A DNA stretch of 64,000 bases. It comes from Wolfiporia cocos. Its lineage: Eukaryota > Basidiomycota > Agaricomycetes > Polyporales > Phaeolaceae. Of this stretch, positions 15,901 through 59,688 are shown in pieces. Numbering within the stretch: the stretch's first letter is position 1; every line of letters begins with the position of its first letter. The notes beneath the pieces are model-generated. The model ran no database searches and was not told the origin of the DNA. It worked only from the letters and a program-made list of their open reading frames with translations. The position numbers were made by a program, and so were the translations under genes. Where the stretch lies: contig JACCLO010000022.1 in assembly GCA_029448655.1 (NCBI GenBank), positions 1 through 64,000 of the forward strand, given 5' to 3'.

Positions 15901-15995
15901 TAATCTGAGAGATATCTTACCTCCCCTCCGGCGCCACCTGCGCTGGGGCCGAGGGTTCTCCACGTACAGGGTGCCATGGCAACGCGGCGGGGCAG
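15901..15995 (+). mobile_element. 5' internal part of the small LTR element, with self-primer site
   Basis: Two bases (ta) after the LTR comes atctgagagat (15903-15913), the exact 11-nt complement of atctctcagat (15650-15660) in the R region, as in Tf1-type self-priming. The stretch ggccgagggtt...gcggcgggg also occurs in the element at 34784-35331, pointing to related families. The last five bases, ggcag, are the duplication of retrotransposon copy 1. The rest of the internal region is at 47443-48112. Confidence 0.75.
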
Positions 15996-16694
15996 TGTCA
16001 CAGATTTGGGACATGCCACTATTTTTCCCGTATTTTTACCTATTTATCTGGTATTTCTACGACCTTGTAGACATTTACGCTGCTAAGCGCCCGTCTACAC
16101 GTACACGCAACCAAACAACACGTACACAACGCGGTATACGTCCACTTGTCATAACAACACGTACATAACACGCTTGTACGCGTCAATGACTCAGCGGACT
16201 AACCTTCGGTGTCACGCGCTTTACTCATATCCCGGTACCGGGCTATGTCCGTACGATTGGATAAGCGGCCCGCTCGTTATCACATGCCAATGCCCTTATG
16301 ATTACTCATATCCCGATGCCGGTATATAAGAGTCACATGCATGGCTTACTAACGTAGCTACAGCCACTTCCACAACATGGACCTACGGTCCAAACAAACG
16401 ATCTTACTGGTGCGGCCATTACCGGCGCACATGGTCTATTGTAGTTTACGACTTAACCATATTAGTTATGTCTGCGCACAGACCACCTTCATGTTTGGCT
16501 CCCTTACCGGTAACCAAACAAAGCATGTATATAAGTAGGGCTATCACTGCGGATAAGCCTTAGATTTGTTCTCTGCATTCGCACAGTCACATATCATCTC
16601 TGCTTGCGCCCACTAGTCTCCTCACCAACCTTCTGCAACTCCTTCAAGTCGCCTACAAGGTTATAGTGTGAGTCCCACAGTCTAGTCTGTGTCA
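15996..16694 (+). repeat. 5' LTR of copy 1 (type I)
   Basis: Diagnostic type I positions include ctaagcgcccgtc, accttcggtgtc and cctacaaggtt. These are shared with the LTR at 48113-48811 and differ from the two type II LTRs. TATATAA is at 16528-16534, and agatttgttct (16562-16572), 34 bp downstream, is the inferred transcript 5' end. Confidence 0.9.
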
Positions 16695-16696
16695 TA

Positions 16697-16707
16697 AGAA
16701 CAAATCT
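16697..16707 (+). other. Primer-binding site for Tf1-like self-priming
   Basis: agaacaaatct is the exact reverse complement of agatttgttct (16562-16572) at the inferred 5' end of the transcript, and starts two bases after the LTR. No tRNA-like TGG start is present. Fission-yeast Tf1 primes by folding the first 11 bases of its own RNA onto the PBS; the length and placement here match. Confidence 0.75.
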
Positions 16708-17704
16708 CCCCCCTACCCCCGCCCTTGCGCTTGCGCTTGGGTCTGGGTTTCTATCCTACAGGGGCTATTGCTCGTTGCTGCGCACATCCCTACTCTTGAC
16801 AAAGAGTTTGGGGTGATAGTTGAGATCTGGGGGATACAGCGCCATCCTCGGCAGAGGATTGGCAACCAGGGAAGCCACACCGCCTTTTTAGGCAGGAGGC
16901 CTACCTAACCCGGACTCCAGGGTCAAGGAGACATGGTCCTCGCTGACAAGCTTGGACTATGCGCGGTTAAGACCCGCCTGTGGAGAAAAGGGGACGGTCT
17001 GCCTGTGTGCGCCCAACCCCCTGTCATGGCAAGCGTTGTTCAGCGCCCCATCACTATCCATAGGGTCATCGTTATGATGGCATGGGAATTTTCCAAAGCC
17101 GCCTCCCAGGCGTAAGGGACCTGCTTTGAACCCGTTATGGGAAAAGCAGTGAGGGGGGTGACGTAAAAAATCACCCTGCCATAGGTCACTCGCGGTAGCC
17201 AATAGCATAAGTCCTCCGGGCAGCTCGGCGTGCGAGCATGGGTCAAACGGATTTGGGGCCCCATTGGAAGAGAAGCGCGTGGCCCACTCCTTCGGGATGT
17301 GGAGCGCTGCTGTCTCGTGATCTTAGAATCGACAATGGTTTTTTAGCCCTGATGTGACACCCATGTGGCTACAGACGGCAACCTCATTGTTGAAGCATGG
17401 ACAGGCTAAGGGATGTAAAATCCCAGCCACTTTCCGGCAGCGTCCCTCCGGGGCGGTGTCGTGTATCCGATTCCCAATCATCTGACCCAGGAACCGGCCT
17501 GGCAGTCAGCAACTCTACCCCTGGAGTCGGCGCCTCTGACCGTTAGGGTCATGCGAATATCCGCGCCGTCTCGGCACAGGGTTTGCGCGCAACATAAGAG
17601 TAATTATGCCCCGTAGTACACCTTCTTTGCTCCTGAAAAGGAGTCCACTACCCTACCTTACCTAATCCCTTTCTTGGACGTATCACTGGGAAACTTCGTT
17701 TCTC
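16708..17704 (+). other. Retrotransposon leader region
   Basis: About 1 kb between the PBS and ORF1. It has short open frames but none that I recognise. It probably holds packaging signals. The segment from about 17597 (gccccgtagtacacc...) to the ORF1 start is conserved in the otherwise different third copy (43519 onwards), suggesting a conserved element just upstream of ORF1. Confidence 0.5.
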
Positions 17705-18628
17705 ATGAAAGCTGCACTTTCTAGAATCATGCCCCGCGTTACCCGTCGCACCCGTGGCTCCTCCACTGCCCCTTACGTCAAACCGGCGAAGCGGTCCCTT
17801 CTCAGCCGCATCGACACCGCCGACATTCCTCGGGCAGAGGACGTCACCTACACGCTTCCTGTAAAGGAAGATTACACTGGGAAACTCCATCTTTGGGAGA
17901 TTCCCGTCCACATGCCAAAGCACATTGCTGAGGCTGGGAAACCCGCTCCTCGACCTCCCAAACCAGTCCCGCTCGCTAAGCGCATCTGGACAGAGGAAGA
18001 AAAGCTAGCCGCTTCCATTACCGCCATGGAAAATCTCATCGAACTCCGCGAACTCAACAAGCTCAAGCTCGCTCGCGATAAGCTGAATAAGCGAATCGCC
18101 GCCAAACAAGCCGCCAAGGAAGCCAAGCAAGCAGCTTCTTCACTGGCCCTCCGTCTCTCCAGCCCGGCAGTCGGACCTTCTGTTCCGGCCAACCACAAGA
18201 TCCTCGACCCTTCCCTCGTTTTCGGGAAGAAGAAACCCCTCCAAGCATGCGATCAAGTTATTCCCATGCTAGAAGGCACTCTCACTCGTCTTACCCCTCT
18301 CGCCAACCACCCCCCTAATTACCCAGGCTTCCATATGGAAAACGACATGCGTTTCCATACTATGGTAGTAGAATTGGAGGACTTGGTGGATAACGTAAAG
18401 GATAGAGCGAGACGAGGAAGGATCACCAATAGAGACTGGAGAATTATGAAAAAGTATTGCAAACAGCTTGGCAATATTTCCTTTTTGGATTGGCGTACGG
18501 ACTTAGCTCGTATCGTAGCAGAATGCGTAGCGCTACAAATTACTTTTGCCTTCGGTGTAACACCACCTGACAAGGTGGCAGGGCCCTCAACTACTTCGGT
18601 AGAAGAGGATATACTCGCGATTGTATAG
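17705..18628 (+). CDS. ORF1: extra conserved protein upstream of Gag, copy 1
   Basis: 307 aa, start ATG at 17705 (MKAALSRIMPRVTRRT). The N-terminus is basic and Arg/Lys/Pro-rich. Residues ~105-155 form a strongly helical, probably coiled-coil stretch (ELNKLKLARDKLNKRIAAKQ onwards). The C-terminal third (~205-295) is a helical acidic/basic domain containing VVELEDLVDNVKDRARRGRI and SFLDWRTDLARIVAECVAL. No zinc knuckle, protease or membrane segment is visible. It is conserved in copy 2 and, with one frameshift, in copy 3, where substitutions are mostly conservative, so it appears to be under selection. It ends 149 bp before the Gag ATG. It could be a second structural or nucleoprotein; I recognise no family. 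Confidence 0.8.
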   Translation: MKAALSRIMPRVTRRTRGSSTAPYVKPAKRSLLSRIDTADIPRAEDVTYTLPVKEDYTGKLHLWEIPVHMPKHIAEAGKPAPRPPKPVPLAKRIWTEEEKLAASITAMENLIELRELNKLKLARDKLNKRIAAKQAAKEAKQAASSLALRLSSPAVGPSVPANHKILDPSLVFGKKKPLQACDQVIPMLEGTLTRLTPLANHPPNYPGFHMENDMRFHTMVVELEDLVDNVKDRARRGRITNRDWRIMKKYCKQLGNISFLDWRTDLARIVAECVALQITFAFGVTPPDKVAGPSTTSVEEDILAIV

Positions 18629-18777
18629 TAGAAATACTATCATCTTTTAACTCTGAAATAGAGTGCGAGTGTGATCTATAACGAAAGTCGCAGCTTTCAA
18701 AACCCAATCCCTTCTTAAGAATCTAAGACAATGAGTAACCGGAAACTAACATTCGTCACAAACAGTATTCACAAAAA

Positions 18778-20781
18778 ATGTCTTCCACCTCCTCCGTCAG
18801 CACTCCCCTCGCTCCCCGCAAGATGCGCCTCCGCTCAGAAGGCCCGGTGACACCGGTAGCTGGTCCCTCGGGAACCCAGCAACTGGTGACGCTGGAGCAC
18901 CTAAGCGAGGGAGAAGAAGAAGAAGAGGAAGAGGAAGGAGAAGAGGAAATGCCGGAGTTTGCTCCCCCGCAAAGGGAATCTCCGACCAACCCCATGGGTA
19001 CACGCCCAGGCTCCCCCATTGCCGGATACCCACCGGCTCGTCGAACTCGCCCTATCGGGCCCGCCACCACCCTGGAAATGGAATTTTCGGGTCCGACACG
19101 ACAGACCAATGTCGCTGTCGAGAACAACCTCAAGGCGTACCTTCCTGAGGAGGAACACCACAAGGTGGATGGGTCCATACATGGGCCAATCATCGATGCC
19201 GCCGTACAACGAAGTGCGGCCATAAGCCATGACACCACCGACACCCTAGGTCGAATGGTGCACGCCCGCCTGGAGCGTATCCATGAACGAATCGATTCCC
19301 TGGCTGGGCAATCCAGGGCAATCGAACAGAAGGCCCAAGACGAGCTACACGAAGCGGTCAATTCGGTCCGCAACGAGGTGCTGTCCACTCTGGTGGACCT
19401 CGGCAAGGAACTCCGACAGGAGTACACCGCCAAGTTCACCACCCTGGAAAAGGAGCTCCGCAAGGACTACCGGTCCAGGCTCGACGACCTCGAGGACGCA
19501 TTCGCCGAACGAATGGAGAAGGTTGACGAGGAACTCCGGAGGATTCGCAAGAATCCCTCCGTCCCCAACCCTCCTGGCATCCGCACGCCTCCGAGCAACC
19601 CGGCACCTGCCCCCGGCAATGCCCAAACCCGTGCAGCCGATGCCGCTGCTGCCGCGCAAGCTGCAGCCGCTGCTGCAGCAGCCGTCGCCCCGCAGATTCC
19701 AGGTCTGCCTCAAAACCTGAAAATCCCCCCTCCCCCCGAATTCTCTGGGTCATCTGGAAAGGTGACTGCTCAGGAATGGGTGGAGAAGATGGGCCTGTAC
19801 TTCGGTACGCTCAGGGTCTACGACGACCATGACCGTATCACCACGGCCCTCTTCCGCGTCACAGGGGACGCATACAAATTTTTCTCGCCTCTCATCAAGA
19901 AGGCAGGAAACGGTGAACCTCTCGGCACCTGGGAGGACTTCACCAAATCCGTAATGGTGCAATACGGGAAGATGACGGATAAGGAGATCGCGAAAAAGGA
20001 AATTCGCGGCTACTACGGTACCAAGGGCAAGGAACTCGCAGAATCGAACTATTTCAATTACTGCGAACGATTCCGCACCCTCGGCCGTCTCTCCGAAACC
20101 GCCAACGAGACCCTGGTATGGGAGTTCACCGAAACACTTCCCGAAAAGGTTAAGGACACCTTGAACGTCCTCGGCAAGACCCCCTTCTTCAAGGCCCCAA
20201 CCGACATCGAGCCCCTCATCGACTTCGCCCTGGAAATGTACCAAACGTCATATCCAGACAAGATCAAGGGGTCGATCTTCGAGAAGGCCGGCAAGAAGGA
20301 CTCGGCCCCTGCCGAAAAGAAGGAGACGTCCTCCGCTTCTGCAAAGAAGTCGGAGAAGAAAAAGGACAAGGGAAAGGCGCCCGCCAAAGCCCCCGCCGAC
20401 ACCGCCAACGCCGTCTGCACTTACTGCAAGCAGACGGGACACTATTTCAACAAGTGTCCTAAGCTTGCCGCGGACAAGGCTGCGGGAACGTTCGTGCCTG
20501 CCGCTCAGCGGGCCGAACAACAAAGGGTGAAGGATGCAGATGCCGCGTCTGGAAAGACCACGGCTGCTCCTTCGGGTAGTGGAAAGGGACAGGCTTCTGG
20601 CAAGAAGCCGTACTCGGCGCCCCCCGCGGATGGCAAGACGTATCGTGCCCGAACGATCTGGGAAGAAGTGACAGCTGACTCAAGCTCAGCAGGACCCTCG
20701 GCCCCCGCCACCACCGTCGCCAATGTCGGGACCATCTCGGTTCCCCTCGCCCCAACCACACGTCTCGAAGACGTTCTGTGA
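18778..20781 (+). CDS. gag: Gag polyprotein, copy 1
   Basis: 667 aa. An acidic N-terminus (a poly-Glu run at ~45-55) is followed by a long helical region (~120-265) and an Ala-rich linker. The retrotransposon Gag capsid-like domain lies at ~330-470 (AQEWVEKMGLYFGTL, WEDFTKSVMVQYGKM, ETLPEKVKDTLNV). A Lys/Ala-rich segment and one CCHC zinc knuckle, CTYCKQTGHYFNKC from residue 547, follow. It forms the particle and packages element RNA. The stop overlaps Pol by 59 nt in another frame. An upstream ATG at 18731 in another frame (MSNRK) is less likely because the protein-level match between copies starts at MSSTSS. Confidence 0.93.
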   Translation: MSSTSSVSTPLAPRKMRLRSEGPVTPVAGPSGTQQLVTLEHLSEGEEEEEEEEGEEEMPEFAPPQRESPTNPMGTRPGSPIAGYPPARRTRPIGPATTLEMEFSGPTRQTNVAVENNLKAYLPEEEHHKVDGSIHGPIIDAAVQRSAAISHDTTDTLGRMVHARLERIHERIDSLAGQSRAIEQKAQDELHEAVNSVRNEVLSTLVDLGKELRQEYTAKFTTLEKELRKDYRSRLDDLEDAFAERMEKVDEELRRIRKNPSVPNPPGIRTPPSNPAPAPGNAQTRAADAAAAAQAAAAAAAAVAPQIPGLPQNLKIPPPPEFSGSSGKVTAQEWVEKMGLYFGTLRVYDDHDRITTALFRVTGDAYKFFSPLIKKAGNGEPLGTWEDFTKSVMVQYGKMTDKEIAKKEIRGYYGTKGKELAESNYFNYCERFRTLGRLSETANETLVWEFTETLPEKVKDTLNVLGKTPFFKAPTDIEPLIDFALEMYQTSYPDKIKGSIFEKAGKKDSAPAEKKETSSASAKKSEKKKDKGKAPAKAPADTANAVCTYCKQTGHYFNKCPKLAADKAAGTFVPAAQRAEQQRVKDADAASGKTTAAPSGSGKGQASGKKPYSAPPADGKTYRARTIWEEVTADSSSAGPSAPATTVANVGTISVPLAPTTRLEDVL

Positions 20782-23700
20782 AGAACACACCAGCCCCGCA
20801 GCGGCTGGGAGTGTACAGCGCCCCGAAGAAGCGCACCTCTACGAAGAGGCTTCACAGAGACCCCTTATCTTGTGGGAAGATAAGGCGGTCGTACGTCACC
20901 CGGTATCCCATCTCGGCATATTCGGTAACACGGCAATGGACTTTGCCCGGAGGACAAGGACACTAGCTACACGTGCCCCTCCTGTACAATACTTTTATCC
21001 TGACCCGCTCGCGCTGAAGTTTTTCACTTTGTATAATGTACATGGAAACGATTCTCGAGACGACAATAAATCGTTCTCTATCGAAGTGGAACTGTGGGTA
21101 TATGGAAAGAAAGTCAACGCCATGGCATTAATCGACACCGGTGCATCAATAAGCGTCATAGATAAGAAACTCGTACATGAGGAGAAATTAGTCACTCAGA
21201 AACTACCTTCACCTCTCGAGATTCGTAACGCCGACGGTACCTCTAATACTGCCGGTAATATCAATATGGCAGTAAAAGCTTATATGGTGCACGAGGAACA
21301 CAAGTCCACCGAATTCTTGTACGTAATGGACGTACAGAATGCGGATGTGATCCTCGGATATGACTGGTTCCTGAAACACAACCCGGACTTCAATTGGCCG
21401 GAAGGAACTTTCACATATCGGTGTACGGAAAAATGCAAACATGGCAAACAGGTTTCAATTTCTGAGGAAGAAGACGAAATTGAACCCCGCAACATCTATC
21501 AGATCATCAACGATTTTCCAATAGATTTTCTCGGCTTAGAGGAGCCTGAGAATCCCTTTATCGCTTGGGTGAACACCCTTAACGAAGGAACGGAACTCCT
21601 AGTCGATGCCATTCAGTCGATAACGGAGAAGTCGGATGATGAATTCCTGACAGATGCGGATCTCCAGAAATGGAAATCCTTGGTTCCGGAGGAATACCAG
21701 GAGTTTGGTCCCACGGTATTTTCTCAACGCGCATCCGAAAGGATGCCCGAGCGGAAACCATACGACCATGCCATCGACTTCCCCGATGACGCGGTACTAC
21801 CGCCCCCGAGTAAGGCATACAAGATGTCTCCTCAGGAAGCGAACTCGCTAGATCAGTGGATTCAGGAAGAGTTACGGAAGGGCTACATCCGACACTCAAA
21901 ATCTCCGATCGCGAGCCCGGTCTTCTTCGTCCCTAAAAAAGACGGCGGAGCCCGAATGGTAGTCGATTACCGGAAAGTAAACGACTTAACCATTAAAAAC
22001 AGGTACCCTCTCCCACGCATAGACGAGCTTATCGATAAGCTTAGCCAGGCTTCGATATTTACGAAGCTCGACTTGCGTTGGGGTTACAACAACGTAAGAA
22101 TCAAGGAGGGAGATGAATGGAAGACCGCATTCATTACGCCTAACGGCCTTTACGAAGCTGTAGTCATGTACTTCGGCTTTTGTAATGCACCCAGCACGTT
22201 CCAGCACATGATGAACGATATTCTAGGTGACCTTATCAGAGAAGGAAAGGTCATTGTCTACCTAGACGACATCCTTGTGTTCGGAAACGACCTGTTGGAA
22301 CACCGTCGTATTGTCAAGCAAGTATTACAAATCTTGCAAGACAACGACTTGTTCGCGAAGCCTGAAAAGTGCTTCTTCGAACAAAGCAGTATTGAATACC
22401 TGGGAATGATCATTTCCAAAGGAAAAGTCGAAATGGACCCTAAGAAGGTAGCCGGTGTCATGGACTGGCCTACACCTGCCAAGGTGAAGGACGTCCAAGC
22501 CTTTGTTGGCTTCGCCAACTACTACCGTCGGTTCATTAAAGATTTCTCCAAAGTGGTTAAGCCGTTAACCGAACTGTCCAAGAAAAACACGCAATGGAAC
22601 TGGGGACCCGAACAAGCGGAAGCCTTCCAAACTCTCAAGGAAGCTTTCACATCGGCTCCAATACTCCGGATCCCAGATCAGGAGTCCCCGTTCCGCGTGG
22701 AAGCGGATTCTTCCGATTACGCAACTGGTGCAGTGCTATCACAATACTCTTCGGAGGATAAGCTCTGGCACCCGGTAGCCTTTTACTCGAAATCTCTATC
22801 AGCACCCGAAAGGAACTATGAGATTTACGATAAGGAGTTGCTCGCAATCATCCGTGCACTAGAGGAATGGAGACATTACCTCGAAGGACACCCACACAAA
22901 TTTGAAGTATGGTCGGATCATCTCAATCTGACATATTTCAAATCGGCACAACGGCTAACCCGGAGACAGGCACGTTGGAGTCTTTACCTGACAAGGTTCA
23001 ACTTCACCATGTGTCACAAACCCGGTAAAACAATGCTCACGGCTGATCCTCTGTCACGGAGGCCAGACCATGAAGAGGGGGTGGAACTCGACAATCGCGA
23101 TCAAATTTTGCTGAAACCGGAATACTTTACGGTTAGGGCGCTAGAAGCGTCACAGCAGGAGATACAATCAGGCGACGAGGACCTTCTCCGACAAATCCGA
23201 CAAGCCCTCATGGACGATCAAATTACCAAGGATTACCAGGAACTACTGAAAAGTGGTCCCAAGGAATTCGGTAAAGATCTCCAGGAATGGAACATGGAGG
23301 CCGGATTACTCCTCAGACGAGGAAAAGTGTACGTTCCAAAAGAGCCTAAGGAATTGCGCACGAAGATTATGGAGTTACATCATGACCATGTGACGGCCGG
23401 ACACTTCGGACGATGGAAGACCTATGAACTTCTGTCACGTAATTACTGGTGGCCTGGAATGACCACGATGGTAAAGCAATACGTGGAAGGTTGTGACACA
23501 TGTCAACGCATGAAGAACCACAACCAGACCCCGTACGGACCCCTGCAACCGCTCCCAGTCCCGGAAGCACCTTGGGACACCGTCACAATTGACCTTATCG
23601 TCCACCTACCGCCCAGCGGCGAATTGAAACAATTCAATGCTATTATGGTAATAGTGGACCGGCTTACCAAGCGAGCGCACTTCATTCCCACATCAGACAA

Positions 23701-25258
23701 GATAACGGCGAAAGAATTAGCGAACCTCCTATACCTTCGGATCTATCCGAACCACGGACTTCCGAAACAAATCATTTCGGATAGAGGCCCGCAATTCGCA
23801 GCTGCCTTGTTTAAGGGATGGTGTGAACAATTGGGAATCCAACGGTCAATGACAACTGCCTATCACCCGCAAGCGGATGGCCAGACGGAGAGAGTTAACC
23901 AAATCCTGGAACAATATCTTAGATGTTACATCGATGTTATTCAGAAGGATAACTGGTCATGGTTTCTCCCTACGGCCGAATTCGCGTACAACAACGCGGC
24001 TAGTGAGACAACAAAGAATAGTCCATTCTTTGTCGAACTAGGAAGGCATCCCAACGCAGGACCTACGAATTTACGTCCAACACAATACGTGGACCTAAAT
24101 GTCATTGCTTACGAACGATGGTCAGCACAAGAACAAGCTAAGGCAGCAATGAAACTGGCTGCTGAACGCTGGTCTTGGTACTACGATCAACATAAGCGCT
24201 CGGTACCGTTTAAAGTCGGCGACAAAGTTCTCGTTGACGCCCGAAGCTGGCAAGACTCCGAAAGAAGTCTTAGTCCACGCTATTTGGGACCATTTAGGAT
24301 AATTGAACAATTATCTCCGGTCACCTTTAGGGTACACATGGACGAGCAATACAGGGCTTACCACCCAGTATTCCACGCTTCCAAGTTGGTCATGTACAAG
24401 GACCCGGTGCATCAGAAAAAACCAGAGCCTCAACCAGAAATGGTCGACGGCGAGGAGTTATGGGAAGTCGAGAAGATCTTAGATCATCGTCTCCGCGCAG
24501 GAAGAGTTGAATACAGAATCCGTTGGAAGGGATTCGGTATCAATGACGACTCCTGGGTACGCGAAGCGGATCTCGACTCGGCATACGACATTTTGCAGGA
24601 ATACAAGGCTTCACACCCTATTCCAATGCAGGATGTCCCCCTCAGGCGATCAGCTAGAAGGAAAGAAGCAGTTCATGTCTTCGACCCTGACAGCGACGAC
24701 TGGGAAGCCGACGAATGCACGTGGCCAGACGACTGGCCGCAGTATCGCGAAGAATTTGCGAAGGACCCTAAGCAACGCATGGTTAGACACCCCGACGGGG
24801 GATGGATGTCAGCGGACATTAACCAAAACGCGGATTTGAAAATTGTAGTCGGTGAAGGCGGCCGAATGCCGGAAAAAGGAACCAAGGACTCGGTTGGGTT
24901 TGACCTGTACACTGCAACAGGCGACGTTCTGCCAGCTCACGGGCAGACAGAATACAACACCAAACTGAAAATCCAGGTACCTTTCGGCACTTACAGACGT
25001 ATCGCCCCCCGCTCTAGTCTCGCACGCAAAGGCATAGACGTAATGGGTGGCGTCATCGACCACGATTATCAAGGCGAAGTAATCATCATTCTCCGGAATC
25101 ACTCCGACATATCTATCGATATTCGGGCCGGCGATAAGATTGCCCAGCTAATCTGCGAAGTTGCAAAGGACCCGCATATTACGCTACACGGAAAATCTTA
25201 CTTTGAAAAGATTAAATCCGAGCGCGGTACTGGTGGATTCGGCTCCACAGGAAAGTAA
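20723..25258 (+). CDS. pol: Pol polyprotein with C-terminal chromodomain and dUTPase, copy 1
   Basis: 1511 aa. Aspartic protease with DTGA at 138-141; reverse transcriptase with YLDD at 513-516; RNase H with EADSSDYATG (first Asp 662); integrase with an HHCC finger (HHDHVTAGHF from ~886, CDTC ~923) and a D957-D1020-E1056 (DD35E) core; chromodomain ~1245-1297 (ELWEVEKILDHR, YRIRWKGF, DDSW). A trimeric-type dUTPase follows at ~1371-1511 with all five motifs: VGFDLYTA, PRSSLA, GVIDHDYQGEV, RAGDKIAQLI, RGTGGFGSTG. The catalytic Asp and Tyr of motif 3 are present, so it looks active. The frame is +1 relative to Gag with a 59-nt overlap, as in Ty3-like +1 frameshifting; internal initiation at 20723 is the alternative. 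Confidence 0.95.
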   Translation: MSGPSRFPSPQPHVSKTFCEEHTSPAAAGSVQRPEEAHLYEEASQRPLILWEDKAVVRHPVSHLGIFGNTAMDFARRTRTLATRAPPVQYFYPDPLALKFFTLYNVHGNDSRDDNKSFSIEVELWVYGKKVNAMALIDTGASISVIDKKLVHEEKLVTQKLPSPLEIRNADGTSNTAGNINMAVKAYMVHEEHKSTEFLYVMDVQNADVILGYDWFLKHNPDFNWPEGTFTYRCTEKCKHGKQVSISEEEDEIEPRNIYQIINDFPIDFLGLEEPENPFIAWVNTLNEGTELLVDAIQSITEKSDDEFLTDADLQKWKSLVPEEYQEFGPTVFSQRASERMPERKPYDHAIDFPDDAVLPPPSKAYKMSPQEANSLDQWIQEELRKGYIRHSKSPIASPVFFVPKKDGGARMVVDYRKVNDLTIKNRYPLPRIDELIDKLSQASIFTKLDLRWGYNNVRIKEGDEWKTAFITPNGLYEAVVMYFGFCNAPSTFQHMMNDILGDLIREGKVIVYLDDILVFGNDLLEHRRIVKQVLQILQDNDLFAKPEKCFFEQSSIEYLGMIISKGKVEMDPKKVAGVMDWPTPAKVKDVQAFVGFANYYRRFIKDFSKVVKPLTELSKKNTQWNWGPEQAEAFQTLKEAFTSAPILRIPDQESPFRVEADSSDYATGAVLSQYSSEDKLWHPVAFYSKSLSAPERNYEIYDKELLAIIRALEEWRHYLEGHPHKFEVWSDHLNLTYFKSAQRLTRRQARWSLYLTRFNFTMCHKPGKTMLTADPLSRRPDHEEGVELDNRDQILLKPEYFTVRALEASQQEIQSGDEDLLRQIRQALMDDQITKDYQELLKSGPKEFGKDLQEWNMEAGLLLRRGKVYVPKEPKELRTKIMELHHDHVTAGHFGRWKTYELLSRNYWWPGMTTMVKQYVEGCDTCQRMKNHNQTPYGPLQPLPVPEAPWDTVTIDLIVHLPPSGELKQFNAIMVIVDRLTKRAHFIPTSDKITAKELANLLYLRIYPNHGLPKQIISDRGPQFAAALFKGWCEQLGIQRSMTTAYHPQADGQTERVNQILEQYLRCYIDVIQKDNWSWFLPTAEFAYNNAASETTKNSPFFVELGRHPNAGPTNLRPTQYVDLNVIAYERWSAQEQAKAAMKLAAERWSWYYDQHKRSVPFKVGDKVLVDARSWQDSERSLSPRYLGPFRIIEQLSPVTFRVHMDEQYRAYHPVFHASKLVMYKDPVHQKKPEPQPEMVDGEELWEVEKILDHRLRAGRVEYRIRWKGFGINDDSWVREADLDSAYDILQEYKASHPIPMQDVPLRRSARRKEAVHVFDPDSDDWEADECTWPDDWPQYREEFAKDPKQRMVRHPDGGWMSADINQNADLKIVVGEGGRMPEKGTKDSVGFDLYTATGDVLPAHGQTEYNTKLKIQVPFGTYRRIAPRSSLARKGIDVMGGVIDHDYQGEVIIILRNHSDISIDIRAGDKIAQLICEVAKDPHITLHGKSYFEKIKSERGTGGFGSTGK

Positions 25259-25284
25259 TCGTTCCATTAGGGACAATGAAACCT

Positions 25285-25297
25285 GAAGAGGGGGTAA
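25285..25297 (+). other. Polypurine tract of copy 1
   Basis: gaagagggggtaa immediately precedes the 3' LTR (TGTCACAG at 25298) and would prime plus-strand synthesis. The last two bases (aa) are the expected unprocessed overhang next to the LTR TG. Confidence 0.75.
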
Positions 25298-25996
25298 TGT
25301 CACAGATTTGGGACATGCCACTATTTTTCCCGTATTTTTACCTATTTATCTGGTATTTCTACGACCTTGTAGACATTTACGCTGCCAAGCGCTCGTCTAC
25401 ACGTACACGCAAACAAACAACACGTACACAACGCGGTATACGTCCACCTGTCATAACAACACGTACATAACACGTTTGTACGCGTCAATGACTCAGCGGA
25501 CTAACCTCCGGTGTCACGCGCCTTACTCATATCCCGGTACCGGGCTATGTCAGTACAATTGGATAAGCGGCCCGCTCGTTATCACATGCCAATGCCCTCA
25601 CGATTACTCATATTCCGATACCGGTATATAAGAATCACATGCATGGCTTACTAACGTAGCTACAGCCACTTCCACAACATGGACCTACGGTCCAAACAAA
25701 CGATCTTACTGGTGCGGCCATTACCGGCGCACATGGTCTATTGTAGTTTACGACTTAACCATATTAGTTATGTCTGCGCACAGACCACCTTCATGTTTGG
25801 CTCCCTTACCGGTAACCAAACAAAGCATGTATATAAGTAGGGCTATCACTGCGGATAAGCCTTAGATTTGTTCTCTGCATTCGCACAGTCACATATCATC
25901 TCTGCTTGCGCCCACTAGCCTCCTCACCAACCTCCAGCAACTCCTTCAAGTCGCTTATTAGGTTATAGTGTGAGTCCCACAGTCTAGTCTGTGTCA
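25298..25996 (+). repeat. 3' LTR of copy 1 (type II)
   Basis: 699 bp with type II diagnostic positions (ccaagcgctcgtc, acctccggtgtc, gcttattaggtt), shared with 57419-58117 and not with its own 5' LTR. Followed by cggag (25997-26001), the duplication that pairs with ctccg at 58118-58122. Confidence 0.9.
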
Positions 25997-29430: not shown

Positions 29431-29433
29431 AGG

Positions 29434-46880: not shown

Positions 46881-47442
46881 TGACACAGACTCACTGTCTG
46901 TGCGACCCCTGGGCTCAGGGGGATCCATACAGGCCTACAATCGAGGCCATAAGGCACCAACCAGCGGTGAGCGCAGAGGCTACATGGATGGGGCATCCCC
47001 GCATTCCTAGTGTACGCCGACATAGCTGATAACCCTACAGACAAGGTAGGAGAGATACGGGCCCCGGGCCAGGAGATCACACAGCTATAAGCGAGAAAGG
47101 GTGATACACCATTGTCGAGAATCTGAGAGATGGGGTGTAAGCCCACATCTCGTCGTATTATATACATGCTTGTATCTACTACCGAGACTGCCCTAAAGAC
47201 GTGGTCTGTGCACCGCTATCTACTGGGTCATGTGCTAGGTAACGAGACATGTAACAATGTGACCATATGTGACGGTACCTGAGGCGCGCGCTACCCTACA
47301 GCGCTAACCATACGACCAGGTGACCTGCAATAACTGGGAGACGCCGGAGGTGGCTACAGCGCAGAGACGCGGCGTACGCCTAGCGCCGTGCGTGCGTCCT
47401 ATAGCGAGGGAGTACAAACTATTAGTAGAATAATTTGTGACA
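46881..47442 (-). repeat. Other LTR of the small non-autonomous element
   Basis: 562 bp, reverse complement of 15339-15900 with no difference noticed. Adjacent duplication tcaag at 46876-46880. Confidence 0.85.
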
Positions 47443-48811: not shown

Positions 48812-48850
48812 TTACCCCCTCTTCAGGTTTCATTGTCCCTAATGGAACGA

Positions 48851-51800: not shown

Positions 51801-53386
51801 CGACGGTGTTCCAACAGGTCGTTTCCGAACACAAGGATGTCGTCTAGGTAGACAATGACCTTTCCTTCTCTGATAAGGTCACCTAGAATATCGTTCATCA
51901 TGTGTTGGAACGTGCTGGGTGCATTACAAAAACCGAAGTACATGACTACAGCTTCGTAAAGGCCGTTAGGCGTAATGAATGCGGTCTTCCATTCATCTCC
52001 CTCCTTGATTCTTACGTTGTTGTAACCCCAACGCAAGTCGAGCTTCGTAAATATCGAAGCCTGGCTAAGCTTATCGATAAGCTCGTCTATGCGTGGGAGA
52101 GGGTACCTGTTTTTAATGGTTAAGTCGTTTACTTTCCGGTAATCGACTACCATTTGGGCTCCGCCGTCTTTTTTAGGGACGAAGAAGACCGGGCTCGCGA
52201 TCGGGGATTTCGAGTGTCGGATGTAGCCCTTCCGTAACTCTTCCTGAATCCACTGATCTAGCGAGTTCGCCTCCTGAGGAGACATCTTGTATGCCTTACT
52301 TGGGGGCGGTAGTACCGCGTCATCGGGGAAGTCGATGGCGTGGTCGTATGGTTTCCGTTCGGGCATCCTTTTGGATGCGCGTTGAGAAAATACCGTGGGA
52401 CCAAACTCCTGGTATTCCTCCGGAACCAAGGATTTCCATTTCTGGAGATCCGCATCTGTCAGGAATTCATCATCCGACTTCTCCGTTATCGACTGAATGG
52501 CATCGATAAGGAGTTCCGTTCCTTCGTCAAGGGTGTTCACCCAAGCGACAAAGGGATTCTCCGGCTCCTCTAAGCCGAGAAAATCTATTGGGAAGTCATT
52601 GATGATCTGATAGATGTTGCGGGGTTCGATTTCGTCCTCTTCCTCAGAAATCGAAACCCGTTTGCCATGTTTGCATTTTTCCGTACACCGATATGTGAAG
52701 GTTCCTTCCGGCCAGTTGAAGTCCGGGTTGTGTTTCAGGAACCAATCATATCCGAGGATCACATCCGCATTCTGTACGTCCATTACGTACAAGAATTCGG
52801 TGGACTTGTGTTCCTCGTGCACCATATAAGCTTTTACTGCCATATTGATATTACCGGCGGTATTAGAGGTACCGTCGGCGTTACGAATCTCGAGAGGCGA
52901 AGGTAGTTTCTGAGTGACTAACTTTTCCTCGTGGACGAGTTTCTTATCAATGACGCTTATTGATGCACCGGTGTCGATTAATGCCATGGCGTTGACTTTC
53001 TTTCCATATACCCACAGTTCCACTTCGATAGAGAACGATTTATTGTCGTCTCGAGAATCGTTTCCATGTACATTATACAAAGTGAAAAACTTCAGCGCGA
53101 GCGGGTCAGGATAAAAGTATTGTACAGGAGGGGCACGTGTAGCTAGTGTCCTTGTCCTCCGGGCAAAGTCCATTGCCGTGTTACCGAATATGCCGAGATG
53201 GGATACCGGGTGACGTACGACCGCCTTATCTTCCCACAAGATAAGGGGTCTCTGTGAAGCCTCTTCGTAGAGGTGCGCTTCTTCGGGGCGCTGTACACTC
53301 CCAGCCGCTGCGGGGCTGGTGTGTTCTTCACAGAACGTCTTCGAGACGTGTGGTTGGGGCGAGGGGAACCGAGATGGTCCCGACAT
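48851..53386 (-). CDS. pol: Pol polyprotein with chromodomain and dUTPase, copy 2
   Basis: 1511 aa, collinear with the copy 1 Pol and about 99% identical by eye. Differences include HGKRVS for HGKQVS, AWVNTLDEGTELLI for AWVNTLNEGTELLV, GAQMVVDYRK for GARMVVDYRK, DTAYDIL for DSAYDIL and TYGRIAPRSS for TYRRIAPRSS. The protease, RT, RNase H, integrase, chromodomain and all five dUTPase motifs are intact. The R-to-G change lies just before dUTPase motif 2. The +1 frame relation and the 59-nt overlap with Gag are the same as in copy 1. Confidence 0.95.
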   Translation of the reverse strand: MSGPSRFPSPQPHVSKTFCEEHTSPAAAGSVQRPEEAHLYEEASQRPLILWEDKAVVRHPVSHLGIFGNTAMDFARRTRTLATRAPPVQYFYPDPLALKFFTLYNVHGNDSRDDNKSFSIEVELWVYGKKVNAMALIDTGASISVIDKKLVHEEKLVTQKLPSPLEIRNADGTSNTAGNINMAVKAYMVHEEHKSTEFLYVMDVQNADVILGYDWFLKHNPDFNWPEGTFTYRCTEKCKHGKRVSISEEEDEIEPRNIYQIINDFPIDFLGLEEPENPFVAWVNTLDEGTELLIDAIQSITEKSDDEFLTDADLQKWKSLVPEEYQEFGPTVFSQRASKRMPERKPYDHAIDFPDDAVLPPPSKAYKMSPQEANSLDQWIQEELRKGYIRHSKSPIASPVFFVPKKDGGAQMVVDYRKVNDLTIKNRYPLPRIDELIDKLSQASIFTKLDLRWGYNNVRIKEGDEWKTAFITPNGLYEAVVMYFGFCNAPSTFQHMMNDILGDLIREGKVIVYLDDILVFGNDLLEHRRIVKQVLQILQDNDLFAKPEKCFFEQSSIEYLGMIISKGKVEMDPKKVTGVMDWPTPAKVKDVQAFVGFANYYRRFIKDFSKVVKPLTELSKKNTQWNWGPEQAEAFQTLKEAFTSAPILRIPDQESPFRVEADSSDYATGAVLSQYSSEDKLWHPVAFYSKSLSAPERNYEIYDKELLAIIRALEEWRHYLEGHPHKFEVWSDHLNLTYFKSAQRLTRRQARWSLYLTRFNFTMCHKPGKTMLTADPLSRRPDHEEGVELDNRDQILLKPEYFTVRALEASQQEIQSGDEDLLRQIRQALMDDQITKDYQELLKSGPKEFGKDLQEWNMEAGLLLRRGKVYVPKEPKELRTKIMELHHDHVTAGHFGRWKTYELLSRNYWWPGMTTMVKQYVEGCDTCQRMKNHNQTPYGPLQPLPVPEAPWDTVTIDLIVHLPPSGELKQFNAIMVIVDRLTKRAHFIPTSDKITAKELANLLYLRIYPNHGLPKQIISDRGPQFAAALFKGWCEQLGIQRSMTTAYHPQADGQTERVNQILEQYLRCYIDVIQKDNWSWFLPTAEFAYNNAASETTKNSPFFVELGRHPNAGPTNLRPTQYVDLNVIAYERWSAQEQAKAAMKLAAERWSWYYDQHKRSVPFKVGDKVLVDARSWQDSERSLSPRYLGPFRIIEQLSPVTFRVHMDEQYRAYHPVFHASKLVMYKDPVHQKKPEPQPEMVDGEELWEVEKILDHRLRAGRVEYRIRWKGFGINDDSWVREADLDTAYDILQEYKASHAIPMQDVPLRRSARRKEAVHVFDPDSDDWEADECTWPDDWPQYREEFAKDPKQRMVRHPDGGWMSADINQNADLKIVVGEGGRMPEKGTKDSVGFDLYTATGDVLPAHGQTEYNTKLKIQVPFGTYGRIAPRSSLARKGIDVMGGVIDHDYQGEVIIILRNHSDISIDIRAGDKIAQLICEVAKDPHITLHGKSYFERIKSERGTGGFGSTGK

Positions 53387-55325
53387 TGGCGACGGTGGTG
53401 GCGGGGGCCGAGGGTCCTGCTGAGCTTGAGTCAGCCGTCACTTCTTCCCAGATTGTTCGGGCACGATACGTCTTGCCATCCGCGGGGGGCGCCGAGTACG
53501 GCTTCTTGCCAGAAGCCTGTCCCTTTCCACTACCCGAAGGAGCAGCCGTGGTCTTTCCAGACGCGGCAGCTGCATCCTTCGCCCTTTGTTGTTCGGCCCG
53601 CTGAGCAGCAGGCACGAACGTTCCCGCAGCCTTGTCCGCGGCAAGCTTAGGACACTTGTTGAAATAGTGTCCCGTCTGCTTGCAGTAAGTGCAGACGGCG
53701 TTGGTGGTGTCGGCGGGGGCTTTGGCGGGCGCCTTTCCCTTGTCCTTTTTCTTCTCCGACTTCTTTGCAGAAGCGGAGGACGTCTCCTTCTTTTCGGCAG
53801 GTGCCGAGTCCTTCTTGCTGGCCTTCTCGAAGATCGAGCCCTTGATCTTGTCCGGATATGACGTTTGGTACATTTCCAGGGCGAAGTTGATCAGAGGTTC
53901 GATGTCGGTCGGGGCCTTGAAGAACGGAGTCTTGCCGAGGACGTTTAAGGTGTCTTTAACCTTTTCGGGGAGAGTCTCGGTGAATTCCCACACCAGAGTC
54001 TCGTTGGCGGTTTCGGAGAGTCGGCCGAGGGTGCGGAACCGTTCGCAGTAATTGAAATAGTTCGATTCTGCCAGTTCCTTGCCCTTCGTGCCGTAGTAGC
54101 CGCGAATTTCCTTTTTGGCTATCTCCTTATCCGTCATTTTCCCATATTGCACCATTACGGATTTGGTGAAGTCCTCCCAGGTGCCGAGAGGTTCACCATT
54201 TCCTGCCTTCTTGATGAGAGGCGAGAAAAATTTGTATGCGTCCCCTGTGACGCGGAAGAGGGCCGTGGTGATACGGTCATGGTCATCGTAAACCCTGAGC
54301 GTACCGAAGTACAGGCCCATCTTCTCCACCCATTCCTGTGCAGTCACCTTTCCAGATGACCCAGAGAATTCGGGGGGAGGGGGGATTTTCAGGTTTTGGG
54401 GCAGACCTGGAATCTGCGGGGCGACGGCTGCTGCAGCAGCAGCTGCAGCTTGAGCGGCGGCAGCGGCCTCGGCTGCTCTGGCTTGAGCATGACCGGGGGC
54501 CGGTACCGGGTCTTCCGGAGGCGTGCGGACGCCGGGAGGGTTGGGAACGGAGGGATTCTTGCGGATCCTCCGGAGTTCCTCGTCAACCTTCTCCATGCGT
54601 TCTGCGAACGCATCCTCGAGGTCGTCCAGCCGGGACCGGTAGTCCTTTCGGAGCTGCTTCTCCATTTCGGAGAGCTTGGCGGTGTACTCCTGTCGGAGTT
54701 CCTTGCCGAGGTCCACCATGGTGGACAATACCCCGTTCCGGACCGAATTGACCGCTTCGTGTAGTTCGTCTTGGGCCTTCTGTTCGATTGCCCTGGATTG
54801 CCCAGCCAGGGAATCGATTCGTTCATGGATACGCTCCAGGTGGGCGTGCACCATTCGACCTAGGGTGTCGGTGGTGTCATGGCTTATGGCCGCACTTCGT
54901 TGTACGGCGGCATCGATGATTGGCCCATGTATGGACCCATCCACCTTGTGGTGTTCCTCCTCAGGAAGGTACGCCTTGAGGTTGTTCTCGACAGCGACAT
55001 TGGTCTGTCGTGTCGGACCCGAAAATTCCATTTCCAGTGTGGTGGCGGGCCCGATAGGGCGAGTTCGACGAGCCGGTGGGTATCCGGCAATGGGGGAGCC
55101 CGGGCGTGTACCCATGGGATTGGTCGGAGATTCCCTTTGCGGGGGAGCGAACTCCGGCATTTCCTCTTCTCCTTCCTCTTCCTCTTCTTCTCCCTCGCTT
55201 AGGTGCTCCAGCGTCACCAGTTGCTGGGTTCCCGAGGGACCAGCTACCGGTGTCACCGGGCCTTCTGAGCGGAGGCGCATCTTGCGGGGAGCGAGGGGGG
55301 TGCTAACGGAGGAGGTGGAAGACAT
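53328..55325 (-). CDS. gag: Gag polyprotein, copy 2
   Basis: 665 aa, two Glu shorter than copy 1 in the acidic run. The helical region differs at several sites (KLSEMEKQLRKDY for KFTTLEKELRKDY; GVRTPPEDPVPAPGHAQ for GIRTPPSNPAPAPGNAQ), and some of these match copy 3, hinting at gene conversion or mosaic ancestry. The capsid domain and CCHC knuckle are intact. Confidence 0.93.
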   Translation of the reverse strand: MSSTSSVSTPLAPRKMRLRSEGPVTPVAGPSGTQQLVTLEHLSEGEEEEEEGEEEMPEFAPPQRESPTNPMGTRPGSPIAGYPPARRTRPIGPATTLEMEFSGPTRQTNVAVENNLKAYLPEEEHHKVDGSIHGPIIDAAVQRSAAISHDTTDTLGRMVHAHLERIHERIDSLAGQSRAIEQKAQDELHEAVNSVRNGVLSTMVDLGKELRQEYTAKLSEMEKQLRKDYRSRLDDLEDAFAERMEKVDEELRRIRKNPSVPNPPGVRTPPEDPVPAPGHAQARAAEAAAAAQAAAAAAAAVAPQIPGLPQNLKIPPPPEFSGSSGKVTAQEWVEKMGLYFGTLRVYDDHDRITTALFRVTGDAYKFFSPLIKKAGNGEPLGTWEDFTKSVMVQYGKMTDKEIAKKEIRGYYGTKGKELAESNYFNYCERFRTLGRLSETANETLVWEFTETLPEKVKDTLNVLGKTPFFKAPTDIEPLINFALEMYQTSYPDKIKGSIFEKASKKDSAPAEKKETSSASAKKSEKKKDKGKAPAKAPADTTNAVCTYCKQTGHYFNKCPKLAADKAAGTFVPAAQRAEQQRAKDAAAASGKTTAAPSGSGKGQASGKKPYSAPPADGKTYRARTIWEEVTADSSSAGPSAPATTVANVGTISVPLAPTTRLEDVL

Positions 55326-55472
55326 TTTTGTGAATACTGTTTGTGACGAATGTTAGTTTCTGGTTACTCATTGTCTTAGATTCTTAAGAAGGGATTGGTT
55401 TTGAAAGCTGCGACTTTCGTTATAGATCACACTCGCACTCTATTTCAGAGTTAAAAGATGATAGTATTTCTA

Positions 55473-56396
55473 CTATACAATCGCGAGTATATCCTCTTCT
55501 ACCGAAGTAGTTGAGGGCCCTGCCACCTTGTCAGGTGGTGTTACACCGAAGGCAAAAGTAATTTGTAGCGCTACGCATTCTGCTACGATACGAGCTAAGT
55601 CCGTACGCCAATCCAAAAAGGAAATATTGCCGAGCTGTTTGCAATACTTTTTCATAATTCTCCAGTCTCTATTGGTGATCCTTCCTCGTCTCGCTCTATC
55701 CTTTACGTTATCCACCAAGTCCTCCAATTCTACTACCATAGTATGGAAACGCATGTCGTTTTCCATATGGAAGCCTGGGTAATTAGGGGGGTGGTTGGCG
55801 AGAGGAGTGAGACGAGTGAGAGTGCCTTCTAGCATGGGAATAACTTGATCACATGCTTGGAGAGGCTTCTTCTTCCCGAAGACGAGGGAAGGGTCGAGAA
55901 TCTTGTGGTTGGCCGGAACGGGAGGTCCGGCCGCCGGGCTGGAGAGACGGAGGGCCAGTGAAGAAGCTGCTTGCTTGGCTTCCTTGGCGGCTTGTTTGGC
56001 GGCGATTCGCTTATTCAGCTTATCGCGAGCGAGCTTGAGCTTGTTGAGTTCGCGGAGTTCGATGAGATTTTCCATGGCGGTAATGGATTGCGCTAGCTTC
56101 TCTTCCTCTGTCCAGATACGCTTAGCGAGCGGAACTGGTTTGGGAGGTCGAGGAGCGGGTTTCCCAGCCTCAGCAATGTGCTTTGGCATGTGGACGGGAA
56201 TCTCCCAAAGATGGAGTTTCCCAGTGTAATCTTCCTTTACAGGAAGGGTGTAGGTGACGTCCTCTGCCCGAGGAATGTCGGTGGTGTCGATGCGGCTGAG
56301 AAGGGACCGCTTCGCCGGCTTAACGTAGGGGGCAGTGGAGGAGCCACGGGTGCGACGGGTAACGCGGGGCATGATTCTAGAAAGTGCAGCCTTCAT
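55473..56396 (-). CDS. ORF1: extra conserved protein upstream of Gag, copy 2
   Basis: 307 aa from the ATG at 56396 (MKAALSRIMPRV). A start three codons upstream (MFL) exists but is not conserved in copies 1 and 3. Differences from copy 1 are few (DTTDIP for DTADIP, KLAQSITA for KLAASITA, AAGPPVP for AVGPSVP), and the last two agree with copy 3. The spacing to Gag is 147 bp. Confidence 0.8.
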   Translation of the reverse strand: MKAALSRIMPRVTRRTRGSSTAPYVKPAKRSLLSRIDTTDIPRAEDVTYTLPVKEDYTGKLHLWEIPVHMPKHIAEAGKPAPRPPKPVPLAKRIWTEEEKLAQSITAMENLIELRELNKLKLARDKLNKRIAAKQAAKEAKQAASSLALRLSSPAAGPPVPANHKILDPSLVFGKKKPLQACDQVIPMLEGTLTRLTPLANHPPNYPGFHMENDMRFHTMVVELEDLVDNVKDRARRGRITNRDWRIMKKYCKQLGNISFLDWRTDLARIVAECVALQITFAFGVTPPDKVAGPSTTSVEEDILAIV

Positions 56397-57418
56397 GAGA
56401 AACAAAGTTTCCCAGTGATACGTCCAAGAACAGGAATGAAAGGGATTATGTAAGGTAGGGTAGTGGACTCCTTTTCAGGAGCAAAGAAGGTGTACTACGG
56501 GGCATAATTACTCTTATGTTGCGTGCAAACCCTGTGCCGAGACGGCGCGGATATTCGCATGACCCTAACGGTCAGAGGCGCCGACTCCAGGGGTAGAGTT
56601 GCTGACTGCCAGGCCGGTTCCTGGGTCAGATGATTGGGATTCGGATACACGACACCGCCCCGGAGGGACGATGCCGGAAAGTGGCTGGGATTTTACATCC
56701 CTTAGCCTGTCCATGCTTCAACAATGAGGTTGCCGTCTATAGCCACATGGGTGTCACATCAGGGCTAAAAAACCACTGTCGATCTAAGATCGCGAGACAG
56801 CAGCGCTCCACATCCCGAAGGAGTGGGCCACGCGCTTCTCTTCCAATGGGGCCCCAAATCCGTTTGACCCATGCTCGCACGCCGAGCTGCCCGGAGGACT
56901 TATGCTATTGGCTACCGCGAGTGACCTATGGCAGGGTGATTTTTTACGTCACCCCCCTCACTGCTTTTCCCATAACGGGTTCAAAGCAGGTCCCTTACGC
57001 CTGGGAGGCGGCTTTGGAAAATTCCCATGCCATCATAATGATGACCCTGTGGATAGTGATGGGGCGCTGAACAACGCTTGCCATGACAGGGGGTTGGGCG
57101 CACACAGGCAGACCGTCCCCTTTTCTCCACAGGCGGGTCTTAACCGCGCATAGTCCAAGCTTGTCAGCGAGGACCATGTCTCCTTGACCCTGGAGTCCGG
57201 GTTAGGTAGGCCTCCTGCCTAAAAAAGGCGGTGTGGCTTCCCTGTTTGCCAATCCTCTGCCGAGAATGGTGATGTATCCCCCAGATCTCAACTATCACCC
57301 CAATCGCCTTGTCAGGCAGAAAGGGATGTGCGCAGCAACAAGTAATAGCCCCTGTAGGATAGAAACCCAGACCCAAGCGCAAGCGCAAGGGTGGGGGTAT
57401 GGGGGAGATTTGTTCTTA

Positions 57419-58117
57419 TGACACAGACTAGACTGTGGGACTCACACTATAACCTAATAAGCGACTTGAAGGAGTTGCTGGAGGTTGGTGAGGAGGCTAG
57501 TGGGCGCAAGCAGAGATGATATGTAACTGTGCGAATGCAGAGAACAAATCTAAGGCTTATCCGCAGTGATAGCCCTACTTATATACATGCTTTGTTTGGT
57601 TACCGGTAAGGGAGCCAAACATGAAGGTGGTCTGTGCGCAGACATAACTAATATGGTTAAGTCGTAAACTACAATAGACCATGTGCGCCGGTAATGGCCG
57701 CACCAGTAAGATCGTTTGTTTGGACCGTAGGTCCATGTTGTGGAAGTGGCTGTAGCTACGTTAGTAAGCCATGCATGTGATTCTTATATACCGGTATCGG
57801 AATATGAGTAATCGTGAGGGCATTGGCATGTGATAACGAGCGGGCCGCTTATCCAATTGTACTGACATAGCCCGGTACCGGGATATGAGTAAGGCGCGTG
57901 ACACCGGAGGTTAGTCCGCTGAGTCATTGACGCGTACAAACGTGTTATGTACGTGTTGTTATGACAGGTGGACGTATACCGCGTTGTGTACGTGTTGTTT
58001 GTTTGCGTGTACGTGTAGACGAGCGCTTGGCAGCGTAAATGTCTACAAGGTCGTAGAAATACCAGATAAATAGGTAAAAATACGGGAAAAATAGTGGCAT
58101 GTCCCAAATCTGTGACA
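57419..58117 (-). repeat. 5' LTR of copy 2 (type II)
   Basis: Reverse complement carries type II positions (ccaagcgctcgtc, acctccggtgtc, gcttattaggtt), the same as 25298-25996. The self-primer site (reverse complement of agaacaaatct) is at 57406-57416. Confidence 0.9.
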
Positions 58118-59688
58118 CTCCGCAATGCCATCTACAGGAACCTACCGAGTAGTGTGCCCCCAGCAAAGAAGCCCCAGACCAAAGAATATGTCGAGATTGA
58201 TGAGGCTGGACCTGGAAGCAGCATGGCAGCTGGAGGACCTTCTGTCAGTGGGACACAGGCACTGAGAAGGAGTGAAAGTGATGATGAGCAGATGGACGGT
58301 GGCCTTGCCAAAAATGAAGTAGGTCGCGAAACTCGTGGCCGCAGCAGTCGCGGAGGTCGCGGAGGTCACGGAGGTCGCGGAGGTCGCGGAGGTCGCGGAG
58401 GTCGCGGAGGTCGCGGAGGTCGCGGAGGTCGCGGAGGTCGCGGGGAAGATCGCGGTGGCCAAGACAAGTCCAACGAAGATGTCAATGCCTCAAGTGACAG
58501 TGACCCCAACATGGCCATGAATCGTCCTCACCAATGGACACAATCTGAGCCTCTCACATTGTCAGGAAAGGGAAAAGGTCGTGCACGCATCACCATCACT
58601 GACTGGGTCGACAATTGGGGTGCCACCGACCAAAGCGACAATCCCGAAAATATCCGTCATCTCCCTCCAGTGTGGGCTCTCATGAGTCCAACCCGCCGAC
58701 AAAACTATCTCCTTGCTCTTGGCACTGGGGAATCATACAAGACCATGGTGGTGAAGTGCTCCGAGCTCATCGTATGAATGTCCTCCTTGATTGTCTCCCA
58801 CCACTGACCCTTGGTGTTCAGGGAAGCCAGGTACTTTTCAGCAAAGATGAAGATGGTCCTCATTGGGCATCCTGGACCTGGGAGCATCACAGAAGGGCTG
58901 ACATTCATGGTCCCTCTGGACTTGACGAAGTTGCCTACTGGCTTCGACATGATCAGCCCATGAAGGACGATGAATGCAAGTTGACTTCTGACAAGGCATT
59001 GATCCAGCGCATCGTATTGACGATCGGCATCCTCTACCGGGAGATGGAGGATGCTCAATTTGTTTGGGTCGAGCCAGATGTCCCTAGGGAAGGGGCGCCT
59101 CAATACCTCATCGACAGCCAGATTACGATGGATTCTAACCCCGAAGGCATTTCCATTGGAGCTTTGGACATGCTGGTGTCTGTCATGATCAGATTGCTTG
59201 ATGGGAAGTCTGTTCTGGCCCCATTGTGGCAGAATCCAGAGTTCCAATCCCTGTGGGATTTCTCATCTGATGATGAGGGCAGAGGTCAGGTCATTGAACA
59301 AAATTCAGATGCAACTGGAATGGTAGGGGCCTTGGTGACCACTGACACCAGGGCTCACACAGATGTTGAGGGCATTGTAGAAGTTGAAGGAGATGTCACA
59401 GATGCTAGGGCAGAGGTTGTTGAGGGGGCAGGTAGGGTTGGAGATGGATCTGGAGATGGTGATGCTCAGGAAGAAGGCTCGGGTGGAGGGGAAGGAGGCA
59501 GCATATCTACAGCACAACTTGGGGCCAAACGTCAGAGGGATGTGATGCGGATGAAAGGTGAAGTCGAGCCAGCACCGAAACGGCAGGCAACCCACAGGCG
59601 TGTCAAGCATGCTACCAGATCGGACACTGCAAGGTCCCCATCACCTCGCCGACTTAGATCTAAAGGGAAGGATGGCCACCATTCCTAG
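58118..59688 (+). CDS. KDZ-cluster accessory gene, 3' half (continues from 25997)
   Basis: The frame opens directly at the LTR boundary (LRNAIYRNLPSSVPPAKKP) and has no start of its own, as expected for the continuation of the gene at 27560-25997. A 50-nt intron (58772-58821) joins KCSELI to GSQVLFSKDEDGPHWASW; the stop is after GKDGHHS at 59688. The middle holds a Gly/Arg repeat (GGRGGRGG) made by the CG-rich minisatellite, either translated as an RGG-like linker or removed as an intron (GTAGGT at 58319 could be a donor). The C-terminal part has DNPEN...WALMSPTRRQNYLLALG, an acidic/Gly-rich linker and a basic tail. Function unknown. Confidence 0.7.
58322..58460. repeat. CG-rich minisatellite, 9-bp unit GGTCGCGGA
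   Basis: About 11 regular copies at 58348-58446 plus variants on the left. The period is a multiple of three, so the frame stays open through it. Confidence 0.85.

Follow-up and report, generated by a model that had tools for sequence, protein, structure and literature searches.

How did two retrotransposons of one family come to carry each other's target duplications and terminal repeats? The question arises from a window of 64,000 bases in the fungus Wolfiporia cocos, bases 1-64,000 of contig C15 (JACCLO010000022.1, 309,862 bases) in an assembly of 64.4 Mb and 76 contigs (GCA_029448655.1). Two Ty3/Gypsy chromoviruses of the same family lie in it on opposite strands, copy 1 at 15996-25996 on the forward strand and copy 2 at 48113-58117 on the reverse strand, with a segment of 22,116 bases (25997-48112) between them that consists of repeats in the stretches examined. 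Copy 1 is chimeric, its 5' part belonging to an element A and its 3' part to an element B, and copy 2 is the reciprocal chimera, with the 5' part of B and the 3' part of A. The best explanation, and a probable one, is that crossing-over between the inverted copies flipped 25997-48112. The flipped DNA would comprise this segment together with those parts of the two elements that lie between it and the exchange point.

Exchanged duplications and long terminal repeats

Copy 1 stands between GGCAG (15991-15995, forward strand) and CGGAG (25997-26001, forward strand), copy 2 between CTGCC (48108-48112, reverse strand) and CTCCG (58118-58122, reverse strand). Neither copy has a matching pair. CTGCC is the reverse complement of GGCAG, the two being the halves of the target duplication of element A, and CTCCG is the reverse complement of CGGAG, the target duplication of element B. 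Two prescribed agreements of 5-mers have a chance of 4^-10, about 1e-6. An original prediction, made from the sequence alone, had claimed crossed duplications, and direct reading of the four flanks bore it out with exact coordinates.

The long terminal repeats (LTRs) cross in the same manner. The 5' LTR of copy 1 (15996-16694, forward strand) and the 3' LTR of copy 2 (48113-48811, reverse strand) are of type I and identical in 699 of 699 bases. The 3' LTR of copy 1 (25298-25996, forward strand) and the 5' LTR of copy 2 (57419-58117, reverse strand) are of type II and show a single difference. Twenty of the 21 variable LTR columns, on which the typing is based, sort as I/II/I/II in the order of the LTRs starting at 15996, 25298, 48113 and 57419, and one is private to 57419. 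Within the copies the LTRs differ at 20 (copy 1) and 21 (copy 2) positions per 699 bases. For the pairs across the copies, the upper 95 % bounds of divergence are 0.0053 and 0.0080, thus the flip would be younger than the insertions, which are themselves recent.

Control copies were obtained by two LTR searches of the genome with the best 40 candidates scored in each, so that the counts are lower bounds. At least 27 other paired copies were readable. One of them, C3:964777/975459, was excluded; it contains nested and partial LTRs. LTRs for which no mate was listed were excluded too. Matching 5-bp duplications were present in all 26 controls examined, 20 in one set and 6 in another. In the first set, 19 of the 20 matched as cut and C1:970007 matched after a boundary shift of 1 bp. 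Among the controls were two further copies in inverted orientation on C15 itself, separated by 23.4 kb, and both had matching duplications (C15:257292, type I by base-by-base typing, and C15:290654, listed by the type II search only). The 20 controls taken whole had LTR pairs with 0-1 differences per 699 bases (20/20) that were concordant at all 20 typing columns. Failure of the LTR differences to sort into two types had been named beforehand as a possible refutation of the crossing; the comparison was run, and the claim held.

Two interrupted target elements

Element A had inserted into a short LTR element, the halves of which are now separated. The left half (15334-15995, forward strand) comprises a CTTGA duplication, an LTR at 15339-15900 and 95 bp of interior, the right half (46876-48112, reverse strand) 669 bp of interior, a 563-bp repeat at 46881-47443 and the CTTGA duplication. 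The two 563-bp repeats (15338-15900 and 46881-47443) are identical in 563 of 563 bases with CTTGA outside each, at 46876-46880 as the reverse complement. LTRs and duplication pair across the flip, at a present distance of about 31 kb. Three empty sites of A were read; each had a single copy of the duplication, and they agreed in 114, 113 and 113 of 115 bases. Fifteen non-self places were listed that matched up to the insertion point of A. In at least eight of them a second LTR followed 656-688 bases further on, the corresponding distance here being 669 less the 5-bp duplication, and in the remaining seven a second LTR at that distance was absent among the matches listed. The short LTR element and the chromovirus have a terminal sequence in common (TGTCACA..CTGTGTCA) as well as a G-rich tract before the 3' LTR; the short element may be mobilised by the chromovirus.

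Element B had inserted into a KDZ DNA transposon. One half of it, together with other insertions, occupies 25997-37110 (forward strand) and recurs in the same order on C75 and other contigs; the other half occupies 58118-64000 (forward strand) and extends beyond the window as far as about C15:66938. On the right of the two chromoviruses, the flanks 25997-28500 and 58118-60600 belong together as the halves of a single repeat. They meet with an overlap of exactly 5 bases at all 20 non-self places listed, counting those whose listed first-half match starts at its first base. Three empty sites of B, read base by base, agreed in 115 of 115 bases with the expected uninterrupted site, with a single copy of the duplication, whereas the joins as assembled agreed in 72-73 of 115 bases there. 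The order on C75 is the 35800-37110 segment, then 28500-25997, 58118-59920 and the segment found at C15 65149-66938.

Reversal of the flip had been predicted to restore clean elements, and the uninterrupted targets elsewhere indeed join 25997 to 58118 and 15995 to 48112. Recombination between the inverted copies, the process proposed originally, is thus supported by crossed duplications, crossed LTR types and split targets. In the sequence of events that we propose, a young family of Ty3 chromoviruses would have contributed two insertions in opposite orientation, A with type I LTRs into the short LTR element and B with type II LTRs into the KDZ/TET-JBP DNA transposon. Ectopic, non-allelic homologous recombination would then have followed, in which crossing-over between the inverted copies flips the segment between them. 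A crossover between inverted copies yields chimeric copies that combine the 5' part of one element with the 3' part of the other and therefore carry exchanged target duplications. We infer that the crossover was intrachromosomal and that the organism, not the assembler, produced it.

The interiors of the chromovirus family (16695-25297 and relatives) are mosaic between copies, while the LTR pairs are nearly identical. This suggests template switching between co-packaged genomes. Such switching in retrotransposition, or a double gene conversion, might also be held responsible for the mixed LTRs without any inversion, and the mosaic interior fits both processes. However, reverse transcription makes both LTRs alike, and the LTR pairs differ by 0-1 in 20 of 20 relatives, versus the mixed LTRs here. 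Moreover, neither conversion nor template switching exchanges chromosomal duplications or splits two target elements. An origin without inversion is refuted by the crossed flanks and has to be seen as exceedingly improbable. Template switching may account for the mosaic interiors; it explains neither the LTR differences within the copies nor the exchanged flanks.

Inversion, misassembly or polymorphism

A wrong walk through an inverted repeat produces the same reciprocal signature. If the segment between the repeats had been walked the wrong way, with a switch of copy inside an identical tract, the chromosome would carry two ordinary elements. Three points weigh against an inversion in this respect: identical tracts of 486 and 541 bp offer places where shorter reads or graph nodes could misjoin; C15 is with 309,862 bases small among megabase contigs and may be a hard region; and the evidence consists of one assembly, one arrangement and paralogous empty sites. 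On the other hand, the duplications match in each of the 26 other copies examined, and the second inverted pair of this contig, with 23.4 kb between its members, has normal ones. Many contigs of 2.6-5.3 Mb in a repeat-rich genome would imply long reads, and therefore a divergence of 2.8 % over 10 kb should be resolvable. The two copies also keep separate alleles and were not collapsed. Misassembly is on these grounds unlikely, and the inversion is probably real rather than assembled. The original prediction had offered inversion or misassembly as alternatives; the evidence leans to the real inversion.

A variant of this best explanation is a polymorphic or recurrent inversion, with both orders present in the culture, whether between the two nuclei of a dikaryon or from one cell to another. 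Repeated exchange would be favoured by the youth of the repeats (LTR differences of 0 and 1) and by their spacing of 22 kb, but the assembly shows only one arrangement. A second haplotype contig was not seen: 14800-15333 matched only itself among the best 40 candidates scored, and a part of the inverted segment gave only repeat relatives, and no second haplotype, among the candidates scored. Coexistence of both orders is accordingly rather improbable, and it is equally doubtful that the inverted elements of 10 kb form a flip-flop that works in both directions in the living mycelium. If they did, each flip would separate or rejoin the halves of the KDZ/TET-JBP transposon and of the short LTR element, and the order of the region would vary among the nuclei of a single colony.

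The chromovirus copies

Both copies are young Ty3 chromoviruses. They share 97.2 % identity in an alignment of 10,024 columns on opposite strands, and the 265 mismatches are scattered along the whole element. The LTRs of each copy measure 699 bp with the termini TGTCACAG...CTGTGTCA; the TG...CA ends and the target duplication of 5 bp are those of Ty3/Gypsy chromoviruses. Three large reading frames without internal stop are present in each copy, the first frame of copy 2 being listed from TTG. The pol open reading frame (ORF) encodes 1511 amino acids without internal stop in copy 1 (20723-25258, forward strand) and likewise 1511 in copy 2 (48851-53386, reverse strand). In Pfam, pol of copy 1 comprised protease, reverse transcriptase, RNase H, integrase, chromodomain and a C-terminal dUTPase, with the matches in the order RVP_2, RVT_1, RNase H, H2C2, rve, SH3 and Chromo. 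Protease, reverse transcriptase, RNase H and integrase thus follow each other in copy 1 as in chromoviruses, with the chromodomain after the integrase. Postia placenta offers a precedent for the C-terminal dUTPase: its PosPlaTy3-4, to which copy 1 is likened by description, is a chromodomain Gypsy element with a dUTPase at the C-terminus of Pol (PMC2864245).

Position of the exchange

For the position of the exchange, the alleles of nine type II and eleven type I relatives were contrasted at 224 interior sites that differ between the copies. In type II relatives, copy-2 alleles were enriched up to about 4.7 kb and copy-1 alleles from 5.2 kb onwards; the contrast had a positive sign in each of the three bins before 4678 and a negative sign in each of the three after 5165. 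The best splits were 4660-4678 (score 37.1) and 4678-5165 (36.9) on a plateau from about 4220 to 5190. A permutation p of 0.0004 was observed for the best split (20,000 label permutations), with means of +0.115 on the left and -0.246 on the right. The split 4678-5165 is a tract of 486 bp identical in both copies, located at the end of ORF2 and the start of pol (20674-21159, forward strand, in copy 1; 52950-53435, reverse strand, in copy 2). It is the second longest identical tract between the copies, the longest having 541 bp. Linkage was inspected with one kilobase on each side of the tract, and each search gave 39 non-self matches. The left kilobase of copy 2 and the right kilobase of copy 1, the combination expected for B, were linked in 13 of the relatives listed, six of them in the top 15 of both lists. 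The combinations as assembled were linked in 11 (one in both top 15) and 7 (none) of the relatives listed.

Other results are less favourable to an exchange in this tract. The combination expected for A, left from copy 1 and right from copy 2, was linked in only four relatives listed, one of them in both top 15, which weighs little either way. A local copying model puts the best join at the edge of the 5' LTR (662-717); its gain there lay between 5.4 and 7.4 nats in the four settings used, as against about 0 in the 486-bp tract. The 500-bp bins right of the tract are not uniform; two of them, with three sites and one site, are reversed. C1:162847, a close relative of the left kilobase of copy 1, seems by its position to be part of a copy with type II LTRs (C1:157506). 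The mosaic make-up of the family likewise leaves some doubt about the exchange point.

The copying model favours a reading in which the inversion is real but had its exchange at the edge of the 5' LTR (about 662-717 in the element) instead of the 486-bp tract. Copy-1 alleles would then be expected to be enriched in type II relatives along the whole interior. Left of 4.7 kb they are not; the mean difference of +0.115 is towards copy 2, with a permutation value of 0.0076. Exchange at the LTR edge is hence rather unlikely, and on the statistics an exchange in or near the 486-bp tract at the ORF2/pol junction is likelier, but not proven.

Known rearrangements of this kind

Exchanged duplications on chimeric inverted elements are an already known signature of ectopic recombination. 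In PMC2775673, inversion 2z3 of Drosophila buzzatii is recognised by copies of the transposon Galileo in opposite orientation at the breakpoints, by exchanged target duplications and by chimeric copies, and is attributed to ectopic recombination. The same features are found here: homologous copies in opposite orientation lie at the segment ends, the target duplications are exchanged, and both copies are chimeric by their LTRs, while the position of the split in the interior is disputed between two statistics. Galileo is a DNA transposon, 2z3 is polymorphic and uninverted chromosomes were sequenced (PMC2775673). Unlike that case, the present one concerns LTR retrotransposons, a segment of 22 kb and paralogous empty sites only.

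Ty-mediated inversions are a further precedent; the Ty elements concerned are those of yeast and are not dUTPase chromoviruses. The likeness lies in LTR retrotransposons recombining ectopically, and such inversions are mentioned in the introduction of PMC2775673. The locus described here is a new, well documented case of a known kind of rearrangement. For LTR retrotransposons we know of no route by aberrant transposition. In PMC2775673, that other route to inversions involves transposons with two ends moved together.

The record of one rearrangement is unusually complete, since duplications, LTR types and two split targets point the same way. It includes a likely tract for the exchange, and the substrate consists of young dUTPase chromoviruses. 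At this locus one could also test cleanly whether an inversion of this sort is due to the assembly, is fixed, or varies between the nuclei of a fungus.

Other features of the window

The Pfam matches of the KDZ transposon were a TET/JBP dioxygenase fragment (28987-29430, forward strand; PF12851, E 1e-10), a KDZ transposase fragment (31501-31947, reverse strand; PF18758, E 2.9e-32) and a CxC2 zinc cluster associated with KDZ transposases (32929-33546, reverse strand; PF18803, E 5.7e-29). KDZ transposase and TET/JBP gene are thus combined within one repeat, as in the TET+ Kyakuja transposons of Agaricomycetes, for which 7-bp duplications and CA..TG ends are given (PMC12730594). The transposon has many copies in the genome, with 93-99 % identity over long stretches, and two copies on C4 are mirror images around about 2,838,430 in match coordinates. 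Identical direct repeats of 462 bp, 546 bp apart, occur at 34322-34783 and 35330-35791; they may be the LTRs of a further short element, about 1.5 kb long, that inserted into the KDZ half.

Of those reading frames in the window that were scanned with Pfam (three scans of ten frames each, two frames being scanned twice), none was recognised as a host gene, therefore no phenotypic effect is suggested. Among the first ten ORFs scanned only pol had Pfam matches; TET/JBP, CxC2 and KDZ came from the later scans. An Rfam scan of the window gave 0 matches. Within the inverted segment, 43516-45496 holds diverged fragments of a related element with 82-88 % identity to the interior of copies 1 and 2. A direct duplication of 1.15 kb with 97.6 % identity is located at 5639-6790 and 8861-10012. 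Arrays with 44-base units are present both in the outside DNA on the left (11915-12339) and in the inverted segment (40635-41616).

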